Origin: Lentilactobacillus parafarraginis DSM 18390 = JCM 14109
GTDB taxonomy: Bacteria > Bacillota > Bacilli > Lactobacillales > Lactobacillaceae
Length of the DNA: 45,288 bases
Assembly: GCF_001435895.1 (NCBI RefSeq)
Contig: NZ_AZFZ01000017.1
Coordinates: forward strand, 1-45,288
Reading direction: 5' to 3'
Each line of letters starts with the position of its first letter. Positions within the stretch are counted from its first letter, which is position 1. A program made the position numbers and the translations under genes. Shown here one piece after another: positions 3,941 through 6,556 of the stretch. Below the pieces are notes generated by a model, which worked only from the letters and a program-made list of their open reading frames with translations, had not been told where the DNA came from and searched no databases.

Positions 3941-3976
3941 GGCAGTTATTCGCACTTGGCGTTTTGCCAAACTGCC
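3941..3976. promoter_or_regulatory. Nested inverted repeats upstream of the aminotransferase promoter
   Basis: GGCAGTT (3941-3947) is matched by AACTGCC (3970-3976), and inside it TTGGC (3956-3960) is matched by GCCAA (3966-3970). The element ends 2 bases before the -35 box of the aminotransferase operon. It could be an activator or repressor site; no regulator can be named. Confidence 0.3.
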
Positions 3977-3978
3977 CC

Positions 3979-4007
3979 TTGCTTTCACAAAATAAAACGG
4001 TTATGAT
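3979..4007 (+). promoter_or_regulatory. Promoter of the leader peptide-aminotransferase operon
   Basis: TTGCTT (3979-3984) and TATGAT (4002-4007) are separated by 17 bases. Transcription would begin near 4014, about 26 bases before the leader-peptide start codon. Confidence 0.7.
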
Positions 4008-4040
4008 AAAAACGTAAGATATTCTAAGGAGTCTTTAATT

Positions 4041-4106
4041 ATGCCAAACACTAGTAAAACTCAACTGAATACTTGTCGTTATTACTTTTGGTTTTTTCAG
4101 ATGTGA
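4041..4106 (+). CDS. Aromatic-rich leader peptide of an attenuator
   Basis: This is a 21-codon reading frame with ATG at 4041 and TGA at 4104-4106. It has a full AAGGAG ribosome site at 4026-4031, nine bases before the start. Residues 14-19 are YYFWFF, encoded by TAT TAC TTT TGG TTT TTT at 4080-4097. So all three aromatic amino acids are sampled within six codons. The frame lies between a good promoter and an intrinsic terminator in front of an aminotransferase gene. It resembles the leader peptides of the enterobacterial phe and trp operons in design, not in sequence. The likely role is to make the ribosome sense charged aromatic tRNAs. Translation itself has not been shown. Confidence 0.75.
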   Translation: MPNTSKTQLNTCRYYFWFFQM

Positions 4107-4236
4107 TCTGTAAAAGCCAAGAGATTTTCGTGATGAAAATTAAAAGGCCGCGCAGATCAAGCAATTGACTGTGCGGGATTAAACCATTTTTGGGAAGTCC
4201 TTTCAGTCAATGATGACTGAGAGGACTTATTTTTTT
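4104..4236 (+). promoter_or_regulatory. Ribosome-mediated attenuator with alternative RNA hairpins
   Basis: Five segments can pair in exclusive ways. Segment 0, TGATCTG (4104-4110), overlaps the leader stop codon and matches CAGATCA (4153-4159) exactly. Segment 1, CCGCGCAG (4148-4155), pairs with CTGTGCGG (4169-4176). TTGACTG (4165-4171) matches CAGTCAA (4204-4210), extended by GGATT (4176-4180) with AGTCC (4196-4200); this would be the antiterminator. The terminator uses 4195-4209 with 4214-4228. A ribosome that completes the peptide covers segment 0, so 1:2 and the terminator form. A ribosome stalled at the aromatic codons leaves segment 0 free, so 0:1 forms, then the antiterminator, and transcription continues. 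The pairings are seen in the sequence; the mechanism is inferred. No T-box signature is present. Confidence 0.65.
4195..4236 (+). terminator. Intrinsic terminator inside the leader (attenuator)
   Basis: A 15-bp stem (4195-4209 with 4214-4228, one G-U pair) with loop ATGA is followed by seven T at 4230-4236. The ribosome site AGGAGG of the aminotransferase begins at 4237, so this terminator must be passed for the operon to be expressed. Confidence 0.85.
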
Positions 4237-4253
4237 AGGAGGAGATCCATATT

Positions 4254-5438
4254 ATGAGTAAATTAGTTGATCGAATGAATAAACGGGTAGCCGCGTTATC
4301 ACCATCTTCAATTTTAACTTTTAATCAGAAGATTTCGACGATTCCTGACATTGTGAAACTGACGTTGGGGGAACCAGACTTTAACACTCCCGACCACATT
4401 AAGCAGGCTGCCATCAACGCAATTAACAATAACGACAGCCACTACACAAATTCCCGGGGGACGCTGGGGCTTCGCAAGGCCGCAACAAGTTACCTCAGTA
4501 AGAAGTACGGTGTGAACTACGATCCTGAAACCCAGATCTTAATGACTGCCGGCGCAACTGGGGCCATCTATTCCGCTCTGACGGCGATGCTGAACCCTGG
4601 GGATACCGTGATTATTCCAACCCCAATCTTTCCGTTGTACATTCCCATTGCCACGCTTGGCGGTGCCAAACCCATCTTTATTGACACCTCTGATAACGGT
4701 TTTATCCTGTCACCAGAAAAATTGGCGAAGGTGATTGAAGACAATAAAGAGACGGTTAAGGCGGTCGTTTTAAACTACCCGACTAATCCAACCGGGGTTA
4801 CTTATCATCGTGAGGATCTCCAAAAAATTGCCGACGTCATTTCCAAGTACGACATTTTTGTCCTCAGTGATGAAATCTATAGTGAGTTAACCTACGATGG
4901 CACCCACGTTTCAATGGGTTCAATTCTCCCTGACCAAGCCTTAGTGATGAATGGGGTTTCTAAGTCTCACGCTATGACCGGTTGGCGGATTGGGATGATC
5001 TGCGGCCCTGCGGATGTTATTAGTGAAATTGGCAAGGTCAGCGAGTTTACGATCACTTCGGCAACGACCAACGCTCAGGCGGCGGCCGAAGAGGCGTTTA
5101 AGAATGGCCTTGACGATAGTTCAGCGATGAAGGCGGAATATATTAAACGGCGAGATTTACTCATTAAAGGATTATCGAAGGCCGGATTCTCGTGTCCGAA
5201 CCCGAATGGGGCGTTCTACATTTTCGCTAAGATTCCCGCTGGTCTCAACCAAAACAGCGTTGAGTTCTGTTATGAATTAGCTGAGCAGGCGAAGGTTGCC
5301 GTTATTCCGGGTGCCTCATTTGGCCCTGGTGGTGAAGGGTACGTTCGAATTAGTTACGCTGCCAGCGAAGCTGATTTGAATAAAGCCGTTGACCGGATCC
5401 AAAAATTCGTTGCTGATAAAGCTAAGGCCGTTGATTAA
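4254..5438 (+). CDS. araT: PLP-dependent class I aminotransferase, probably aromatic (AraT-like)
   Basis: The product has 394 residues, the usual length for fold-type I aspartate/aromatic aminotransferases. Family landmarks in order: LTLGEPDFNTP near residues 35-46, HYTNSRGTLGLR, NYPTNPTG (the Asn contacting PLP), the Asp/Tyr pair in LSDEIYSEL, the Schiff-base lysine in SKSHAMTGWRIG near residue 240, and the carboxylate-binding arginine in GYVRISYA. The closest family I recall is lactococcal AraT, which transfers amino groups between phenylalanine, tyrosine or tryptophan and 2-oxoglutarate. The aromatic leader peptide supports this substrate range. It is followed after 48 bases by a D-2-hydroxyacid dehydrogenase. 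Together they could convert aromatic amino acids to keto acids and then to hydroxy acids such as phenyllactate. Alternatively, the aminotransferase could make the last step of Phe/Tyr synthesis. ATG at 4254 follows AGGAGG. Confidence 0.75.
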   Translation: MSKLVDRMNKRVAALSPSSILTFNQKISTIPDIVKLTLGEPDFNTPDHIKQAAINAINNNDSHYTNSRGTLGLRKAATSYLSKKYGVNYDPETQILMTAGATGAIYSALTAMLNPGDTVIIPTPIFPLYIPIATLGGAKPIFIDTSDNGFILSPEKLAKVIEDNKETVKAVVLNYPTNPTGVTYHREDLQKIADVISKYDIFVLSDEIYSELTYDGTHVSMGSILPDQALVMNGVSKSHAMTGWRIGMICGPADVISEIGKVSEFTITSATTNAQAAAEEAFKNGLDDSSAMKAEYIKRRDLLIKGLSKAGFSCPNPNGAFYIFAKIPAGLNQNSVEFCYELAEQAKVAVIPGASFGPGGEGYVRISYAASEADLNKAVDRIQKFVADKAKAVD

Positions 5439-5486: not shown

Positions 5487-6479
5487 ATGAAAATTTTGAT
5501 GTACACCGTTCGCCCAGATGAAAAAGGCCCCATTAACCAGTGGGTGAAGGATCACCCTGGTTATCAAATTGATACCAATAATCAACCCCTAAACAGCAGT
5601 ACCGTTGATCTTGCAAAGGGATATGATGGGATCGCGATTCTTCAACACGCGTCAATTACCGAACCGGTTGTGTATCAAAAGCTCAAGGAATTTGGCATCA
5701 AACAAATTTCACTTCGGAGTACCGGATTTGAAATCATTGATTTAAAAGAAGCCACTAAGAACGGCTTAGTCGTCACAAATGTGCCCGGTTATTCACCACG
5801 ATCCGTAAGTGAACTGGTGCTTGCTGACGTGATGTATCTTTTGCGCCATCTCGGTGAAGTTCGTGCTCGCGAAGAACACGGCGATTTCACCTGGGTTAAT
5901 ACGGAAGCCAAAGAAATTCACACGTTAACTGTTGGCATTATTGGGGCTGGTAAAATCGGGAGCGCCGTGGCGCGGATCTTTAGAGCCCTTGGTGCAAACG
6001 TGATTGCCGCTGATCCCATTCACCGCCCGGATTTAAACGATACCGTTACCTATGTCGATCACGAAACGGTTTATAAAACGGCCGATATTATCACCATGCA
6101 CACGCCGCTAACCGATGAAACGCACCATATGATCGATGCCGCTGTTTTCAAGAAAATGAAACCAAGCGCCATCTTCATTAATGCATCACGGGGTCCGGTT
6201 GTTAAAACGGGTGATTTAGTTGCCGCTTTGGAGAATAAAGAGATTGCCGCCGCCGCGATTGATACATTTGAAGGGGAAACGCCAATTGTCAATCATGATC
6301 TAACGGGCAAACCATTGAACAATGACAATTTGGAAAAGCTGTTGGCTATGCCAAACGTGAATGTCAGTCCCCACATTGGGTTCTATACGGAAGTGGCTGT
6401 TCAAAACATGGTTGAGATTACTTTGAACGATGTCGATGCCATTCTTCAAGGGAAACAGTCACTGCATCAAGTCAATTAA
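5487..6479 (+). CDS. D-2-hydroxyacid dehydrogenase (D-lactate/D-hydroxyisocaproate type)
   Basis: A 330-residue NAD-dependent enzyme that interconverts 2-keto acids and D-2-hydroxy acids in the cytoplasm. The nucleotide-binding motif GIIGAGKIGSAVARIF lies near residues 153-168, followed by an acidic residue (AADP). The catalytic Arg is in INASRGPVV, the Glu in DTFEGE and the His in VSPHIGFYT near residue 296. The opening MKILMYTVRPDE is typical of the D-LDH/D-HicDH branch rather than of serine-pathway dehydrogenases. It is cotranscribed with the aminotransferase (gap 48 bases, own AGAGGAG site), which suggests that it reduces phenylpyruvate or branched-chain keto acids. It could also be an ordinary D-lactate dehydrogenase; specificity cannot be read from sequence alone. 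Confidence 0.85.
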   Translation: MKILMYTVRPDEKGPINQWVKDHPGYQIDTNNQPLNSSTVDLAKGYDGIAILQHASITEPVVYQKLKEFGIKQISLRSTGFEIIDLKEATKNGLVVTNVPGYSPRSVSELVLADVMYLLRHLGEVRAREEHGDFTWVNTEAKEIHTLTVGIIGAGKIGSAVARIFRALGANVIAADPIHRPDLNDTVTYVDHETVYKTADIITMHTPLTDETHHMIDAAVFKKMKPSAIFINASRGPVVKTGDLVAALENKEIAAAAIDTFEGETPIVNHDLTGKPLNNDNLEKLLAMPNVNVSPHIGFYTEVAVQNMVEITLNDVDAILQGKQSLHQVN

Positions 6480-6515: not shown

Positions 6516-6556
6516 CGGGCCACCGACGTTCCTGAATTGGGAACATTGGTGGCCCG
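6516..6556 (+). terminator. Hairpin after the aminotransferase-dehydrogenase operon
   Basis: A 9-bp outer stem (6516-6524 with 6548-6556) encloses an inner stem (6528-6532 with 6540-6544). The following T-run is weak (CTTAGATATTATT), so the terminator call is moderate. Confidence 0.55.

Follow-up and report, generated by a model that had tools for sequence, protein, structure and literature searches.

Probable attenuation by an aromatic leader peptide ahead of an araT operon in Lentilactobacillus parafarraginis, with related leaders in the Lactobacillales

How do lactic acid bacteria adjust the expression of genes for aromatic amino acids to the supply of the amino acids themselves? The question is raised by a stretch of 45,288 nucleotides (nts) of Lentilactobacillus parafarraginis, the whole of which we call the window, where a short ORF rich in aromatic codons stands before an aminotransferase/hydroxyacid dehydrogenase operon. 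A preliminary description considered this arrangement to be a leader-peptide attenuator. The evidence given below leads us to regard it as very likely that the element is a ribosome-mediated transcription attenuator, in which the charging of the tRNAs for Tyr, Phe and Trp is sensed and a shortage of any of these amino acids brings relief.

The leader ORF, MPNTSKTQLNTCRYYFWFFQM followed by a stop, is located at 4041-4106 of the forward strand (ATG 4041-4043, 21 codons, TGA 4104-4106), as are all the other features described here for the window. It is preceded by the ribosome site AAGGAG at 4026-4031, and similar sites are found 5′ of most of the related leaders. Codons 14-19 (4080-4097) are TAT TAC TTT TGG TTT TTT, six aromatic codons in a row, and the leader of 21 codons with a proper ribosome site is confirmed as it had been described. 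One feature of the attenuator class, a short ORF that has a ribosome site and contains consecutive codons for the sensed amino acids, is thus present. When both strands of the window were scanned for ORFs with a ribosome-site motif, an ATG, GTG or TTG start, a length of 8 to 41 amino acids and at least five aromatic residues in six, this leader was the sole ORF to pass, and three ORFs in total passed in 40 copies of the window generated by a first-order Markov model. Inspection by eye suggests a possible promoter at 3979-4007 (TTGCTT, 17 nts, TATGAT, with consensus bases at 3/6 and 5/6 positions), which would place the transcript start at approximately 4014; it does not satisfy the rule of the consensus scan and is absent from its output, and promoter-like sequence is also found 5′ of several related leaders, e.g. 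L003, L004 and L010. In plasmid records, a match to the leader was not found at the sensitivity used.

The leader RNA (240 nts) was predicted to fold with -76.2 kcal/mol (z = -5.95), and none of 200 shuffled sequences was as good. It contains six strands, A to F, which give the five mutually exclusive pairings A:B, B:C, C:D, D:E and E:F; the segments earlier numbered 0 to 4 correspond to strands B, C, D, E and F. Strand A (4085-4102) consists of leader codons, CTTTTGG (4085-4091) and CAGAT (4098-4102), which pair with CCAAGAG (4117-4123) and ATCTG (4106-4110), respectively, of strand B (GATCTGT...CCAAGAG, 4105-4123). Strand B overlaps the leader stop codon, as had been said of segment 0, and pairs alternatively with strand C (CCGCGCAGATC, 4148-4158) as GATCTGT/GCAGATC. 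Strand C in turn pairs with strand D (ATTGACTGTGCGG, 4164-4176) as CCGCGCAG/CTGTGCGG, and strand D forms the antiterminator with strand E (4195-4211) as ATTGACTG/CAGTCAAT, that is, 4164-4171 with 4204-4211. The last pairing, E:F, was found by the terminator scan as an intrinsic terminator at 4195-4228 with 15 pairs and a T run, its 5′ arm being 4195-4209 of E and its 3′ arm 4214-4228 of F (4214-4236 with the T run at 4230-4236). The T run abuts the ribosome site AGGAGG at 4237, 5′ of the aminotransferase gene. The exclusive pairings 0:1, 1:2, 2:3 and 3:4 of the preliminary description are borne out as B:C, C:D, D:E and E:F, including the terminator that touches the ribosome site of the aminotransferase gene. 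Strand A is an addition to that reading: the Tyr-Phe-Trp sensing codons themselves pair with the next segment, and compensatory changes are found in this pairing.

AraT was searched in 100 related genomes, and upstream of the 30 best loci an aromatic-rich leader was found in 27; at the other three (L022, L025 and L029), no aromatic leader was found upstream of AraT. The usual leader of the genus of the window ends with YYFWFFQI or YYFWFFRV, and the ends outside the genus include FYFWYFR, FYFWYFS, FYYFWFFHECL and RYYFRFFLV. Despite nucleotide differences the aromatic content is kept, as in YYFWFF, YYYYWFI, FWFWFF and YYFGYAYF, and the residues closing the araT leaders vary (QM, QI, RV, G, GQ, R, S, A and HECL). 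Scanning named genomes with a sequence pattern proved unselective, giving at least 119 stretches from many phyla; three lactic acid bacteria examined from it all had the leader, which precedes araT in Pediococcus parvulus and Leuconostoc holzapfelii and a PF13303-like gene in Weissella sagaensis (gene names by likeness). Leuconostoc holzapfelii and Weissella sagaensis belong to the Lactobacillaceae, order Lactobacillales. At two further loci, L211 and L212, a one-base shift relative to the W. sagaensis leader gives the frame YFTFGFFR, and the RNA pairing CTTTTGG/CCAAAAG is kept. At L006, L009, L013, L014 and L015, approximately 120-500 extra bases, hairpin-like in places, lie between the terminator and araT.

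The pairings are conserved together with the peptide. In 21 leaders, A:B, C:D and E:F were paired in 94.8% of cells, compared with 34-48% when the strands were slid, and double changes occurred at 13 of 33 pairs; none of 500 shuffles reached either measure. For the alternative pairings, B:C and D:E, 95.7% of cells were paired in the same leaders, compared with 24-39% slid, and covariation was not beyond that of the shuffles in this first set of 21. A wider set of 64 loci, picked among the stronger hits (28 of L157-L226 were left out), was given to the model R1; 63 of them, all except L195, matched R1 and entered the alignment. The pairs of R1 itself were paired in 93.4% of cells with double changes at 28 of 33 pairs, in an alignment fitted to that structure. 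B:C and D:E, which are not contained in R1, were paired in 92.4% of cells, compared with 23-48% slid, and showed 25 double-change cells compared with 9.1 in the shuffles, of which 0/500 reached 25; because the leaders are kin, such counts should not be read as probabilities. Slid versions of B:C and D:E match or exceed this number of double-change cells (25 at +1 and 31 at +2), with a far smaller share of their cells, 28-33%, being paired. Several rows of more distant leaders have gaps where B:C and D:E should lie, and these pairings were set aside there.

Compensatory change reaches the sensing codons as well. In the first helix of A:B, formed by the CTTTTGG part, double changes were found at five of seven pairs among the 63 leaders, and the CAGAT part of A is weaker, with 78.5% of cells paired. 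Where the Trp codon is changed, its RNA partner is changed too, giving CTTTCGG/CCGAGAG with CGG and CTTTTTG/CAAAGAG with TTG, and a similar partner change was seen by eye at L027, where the Trp codon has become CGC. The mutually exclusive terminator and antiterminator pairings, another feature of the attenuator class, are thus conserved in relatives. The comparison upstream of araT homologues, proposed with the preliminary description as a check, was in favor of it, as the leader is found at 27/30 loci, the pairings are kept and the stems covary.

The effect of the ribosome was predicted by removing its footprint (the A-site and 12 nts) before equilibrium folding of a transcript ending after E. 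For the window, the released ribosome was predicted to leave A:B at 0.99, C:D at 0.99 and D:E at 0.01, and stalling at the first or third aromatic codon to give B:C and D:E at 0.99-1.00; a stall at aromatic codon 6 was predicted to give C:D at 0.85. Among 20 core leaders, stalls at aromatic codons 1-5 gave D:E above 0.5 in all 20. After release D:E was preferred (>0.5) even so in 15 of the 20 on this transcript, and the off state there must therefore rest on the order of folding. Such an off state can be reached in that way, because on a transcript ending after D, with the ribosome released, C:D forms in 20/20. On the same shorter transcript, C:D still dominates in 16 of 20 after a stall at aromatic codon 1; in this model, the early C:D must give way once E is made. 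L024 was computed but kept outside the core 20, C:D being misaligned there, and its D:E was 0.00 in the states given. For the leader of the aro operon of the same genome (described below), the strands are complementary (6, 7, 8 and 7 pairs in A:B, B:C, D:E and E:F), and C:D was 0.95-0.98 in every ribosome state, showing no switch, where these values cover part of a bulged helix. A cruder measure, any upstream pairing of E in 27 leaders, gave a mean state difference of 0.07 compared with 0.02 in shuffles and did not separate the states. Equilibrium folding thus yields the full switch in the window, the 'on' half alone in most of the relatives, and none in the own aro-operon leader. The notion that a finishing ribosome favors termination and a stalled one read-through agrees with the conservation of the leader, the covarying stems and the predicted folding of the leader of the window.

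From these patterns we infer how translation, stalling, termination and read-through would be connected, and in which direction the element would respond. With an ample supply of aromatic amino acids, translation of the leader would be completed and the ribosome would depart; A:B and C:D would then form, leaving E free to make the E:F terminator, and transcription would end ahead of the aminotransferase gene. A shortage of Tyr, Phe or Trp would stall the ribosome on codons 14-19, where it would cover A, so that B:C and then D:E could form, the terminator would be blocked, and araT and the dehydrogenase gene would be transcribed.

The first gene downstream (4254-5438) encodes a class I/II aminotransferase, AraT-like (PF00155), with solved relatives including the aromatic aminotransferase 1dju; its best NCBIfam match, 557.5, is below the cut-off of 576, and aromatic specificity is suggested by the context. 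The second gene of the likely operon (5487-6479) encodes a D-2-hydroxyacid dehydrogenase (PF02826 and PF00389), solved relatives of which include D-lactate and D-2-hydroxyisocaproate dehydrogenases, and which may serve in the recovery of hydroxy acids or the spilling of keto acids. Since production of Trp is not to be expected of AraT, the downstream gene does not account for the Trp codon of the leader. A GC-rich inverted repeat, seen by eye after the dehydrogenase gene (6517-6555), is perhaps the end of the operon, and is not listed by the terminator scan, as it has no T run. At L325 and L326, a PF13303 transporter gene, of a family that has its own aromatic leader elsewhere, comes after araT and the dehydrogenase gene. 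Among the 24 members of the genus (G000-G023), the same four (G002, G007, G014 and G020) lack both aroC and a close orthologue of araT, when G023 is counted as araT-positive although its copy is split over two frames; among these four, only G007 has an R1 match, and it is false. This co-absence, together with the genes found after other leaders, fits a role in aromatic amino acid supply and not breakdown.

R1 matches 110 of 397 genomes of the family, in 18 of 40 genera; this tally includes eight genomes whose sole hit is among nine judged to be false. Beyond the 30 loci, 40 R1 hits were read, a selection aimed at second copies, low scores and other genera. An aromatic leader was found in 31 (L211 and L212 with the shifted frame), and the remaining nine (L200 and L203-L210, E = 1.5e-4 to 0.0084) had no convincing aromatic leader and were taken as false. 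By reading, the genes after the 31 leaders are araT (14), a PF13303 transporter (8), aroE (4), transketolase (3), aroC (1) and a prephenate dehydratase-like gene (1). A Pfam check of six downstream proteins confirmed one aroE, one aroC, one transketolase and two PF13303; the prephenate dehydratase-like protein had no Pfam match and a weak NCBIfam match (21.8 bits against a cut-off of 219). On contig C176 of the own genome, the leader MTKFVQQLNAYYYGYAWFR precedes an MFS transporter gene, and the leader MTKQTSVVNTYYFGYAYFM precedes chorismate mutase, aroC and further aro genes (aroA, tyrA and aroK by eye), each of the two leaders being followed by a terminator-like hairpin seen by eye. Leaders with P[QK]LNNYYFSYFR in G062, G070 and G075, and one with PQLNSYYFSFFR in G066, also precede aro genes (names partly by eye). 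Downstream genes that make or import the sensed amino acids are a further feature of the attenuator class and are found here, with the substrates of AraT and the transporters assigned by inference. The element of the window very likely belongs to a set in the Lactobacillaceae, and more widely in the Lactobacillales, located before genes for aromatic synthesis and uptake.

A strict scan of 90 regions upstream of aroC, PF13303 and aroE (five aromatic residues in six, fixed ribosome-site motifs, within 1.5 kb) gave a leader on the gene strand in two, L274 and L297, and candidates on the opposite strand in L278 and L305, that of L305 proving to be the leader of a divergent aro operon. These counts do not measure frequency, because leaders such as that of the own aro operon escape the strict rule and because another gene often stands ahead of aroC or aroE in the operon; the scan does not support a leader before every aro gene. 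Three other places were noticed. A short ORF, MTTHVYQTWQSR, lies at 1155-1193 of L381 (G000:C211), 5′ of the TrpX-type gene (PF04392) of the own genome, with a terminator-like hairpin by eye, and is perhaps a Trp leader. The ORF MKLFTTTKGNLFAWQFWRR adjoins a match to RF04312 (trpB ncRNA motif) at L318:4285-4463, 5′ of a TrpX-like gene, so RF04312 may go with a leader peptide as well. At L323:2383-2571, a match to the Rfam family rli28 (Listeria sRNA) has MFS and shikimate dehydrogenase-like genes in its vicinity.

Rfam labels the family RF02863 ('Enterococcus sRNA 2410') as 'Gene; sRNA', and its matches include the leaders of G062, G070 and G075. RF02863 matches 107 of 198 genomes of the order in 34 of 54 genera, 48 of these genomes being above the cut-off, and 0/14 controls, and the listed genomes with matches are mostly outside the family of the window. 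When 32 of the listed places were read (the 12 best and 20 chosen from strong to weak), all 32 had an ATG-started ORF with at least four aromatic residues in seven, ending at most 25 nts from the model start, and 27 of them contained FSYFR. By reading, the next gene is TrpX-like in 28, aroE in three and DAHP synthase-like in one; three of the TrpX-like proteins scored 301-345 bits against a TrpX cut-off of 390. In 30 of the 32, pairing between the codons around AGC and RNA 65-122 nts from the model start was found by a free search without shuffle control. One of the 32, L369, belongs to G017, of the same genus as the window. By score the window leader is not a member (20.5 bits over the full length, E = 0.3, against a gathering score of 61). 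The two nevertheless share an aromatic leader ORF at the 5′ end, last codons that pair downstream, and aro genes among the targets; RF02863 differs in its peptide, mostly FSYFR and without Trp, in its label, and in a hairpin directly after the stop in the leaders inspected by eye. The copies read (L318:7363-7552, L320:7413-7595, L322:7926-8059 and others) look like aromatic leader attenuators, and the sRNA label probably needs correcting.

These gene contexts bear on the opposite model, raised in the preliminary description, in which the nascent aromatic peptide senses a free aromatic amino acid as in TnaC, the ribosome is arrested at or near the stop codon, and a catabolic araT/dehydrogenase operon is turned on. 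Enzymes of the araT and hydroxyacid dehydrogenase types can degrade aromatic amino acids, and the constant peptide end of the RF02863 group (FSYFR) is as expected of an arrest peptide. This constancy of the FSYF codons, however, may stem from their pairing with downstream RNA, and the ends of the araT leaders are variable. The same leader type precedes aroC, aroE, transketolase and chorismate mutase, evidence that is indirect for the operon of the window, and araT goes with aroC across the genus. A ribosome placed at the stop codon left D:E above 0.5 in 11 of the 20 core leaders, which is in favor of such induction, and C:D was favored in the other 9/20; for the window itself C:D was predicted at 0.98, hence termination. 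With biosynthetic contexts, co-absence of araT and aroC and this last prediction against it, we consider TnaC-type induction improbable.

Still less probable is a T-box, riboswitch or protein-binding leader in which the ORF occurs by chance. T-boxes are common in this order according to excerpts of PMC2494555 and PMC9413887, but no Rfam family, Phe_leader and Trp_leader included, reaches its gathering score in the window; a permissive scan of 3950-4300 gave nine weak matches, none of them a T-box or riboswitch, and the aromatic content is maintained across leaders that differ in nucleotides. That the ORF and terminator form the gene of a trans-acting small RNA, as the Rfam name of the related RF02863 suggests and as the short RNA expected from a terminated leader would resemble, is hardly credible, because the RF02863 copies read all carry aromatic ORFs and precede aromatic-type genes, and the araT group retains the antiterminator pairings.

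Taking the preferred attenuator together with its relatives, we find a joint reading reasonably likely, in which the Lactobacillales commonly use attenuation by aromatic leader peptides to control the whole aromatic supply (the aro operon, aroE, aroC, transketolase for erythrose-4-phosphate, araT and several transporters), through chains of at least six alternating RNA strands of which the sensing codons are one, and in which the 'sRNA' RF02863 is a branch, the Trp-less leaders predicting that the TrpX-like transporters carry Phe or Tyr and not Trp. If this is true, it would show how lactic acid bacteria tune their aromatic amino acid supply, with the same control over the aminotransferase/hydroxyacid dehydrogenase route that may yield phenyllactate and aroma compounds. 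It would also place a classical mechanism where it was not expected in this order, make a testable switch of an Rfam sRNA that had no explanation, let leader codons predict the substrates of several transporters, and provide a natural series (araT, aro, PF13303, TrpX-like) in which to study how attenuators acquire strands without a change of sign.

Among known systems, TnaC is Rho-dependent with arrest at the stop codon; it resembles the element proposed for the window in having a leader peptide that senses an aromatic amino acid, and differs in these two properties and in the opposite direction of its response. In Firmicutes, excerpts of the literature describe His leader-peptide attenuators in the Bacillus cereus group and others (PMC2965389, PMC9413887), a Leu-rich leader of Staphylococcus aureus ilv (PMC5794164) and B. 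cereus-group T-boxes for genes of tyrosine synthesis (PMC2494555); a cysS leader is described elsewhere (PMC8632094). The His and Leu cases share leader-peptide attenuation with the element proposed here and differ in amino acids and genes, and the excerpts of PMC2965389, PMC9413887 and PMC5794164 do not mention aromatic leaders in Lactobacillales. A search of titles and abstract openings did not find such a leader described; the suggestion that the element may be undescribed thus holds within the literature searched, although leader-peptide attenuation itself has been published in Firmicutes for His and Leu. Outside this phylum, in the pheA and trp leaders of E. coli, a peptide rich in the regulated amino acid is followed by exclusive hairpins and a terminator before the first biosynthetic gene, and a stall leads to read-through. 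The element of the window has a short peptide, exclusive hairpins and a terminator like these leaders (Phe_leader and Trp_leader of Rfam) and is proposed to follow the same stall logic, and where they have four segments it has six in a chain, with the sensing codons as one of the paired strands.
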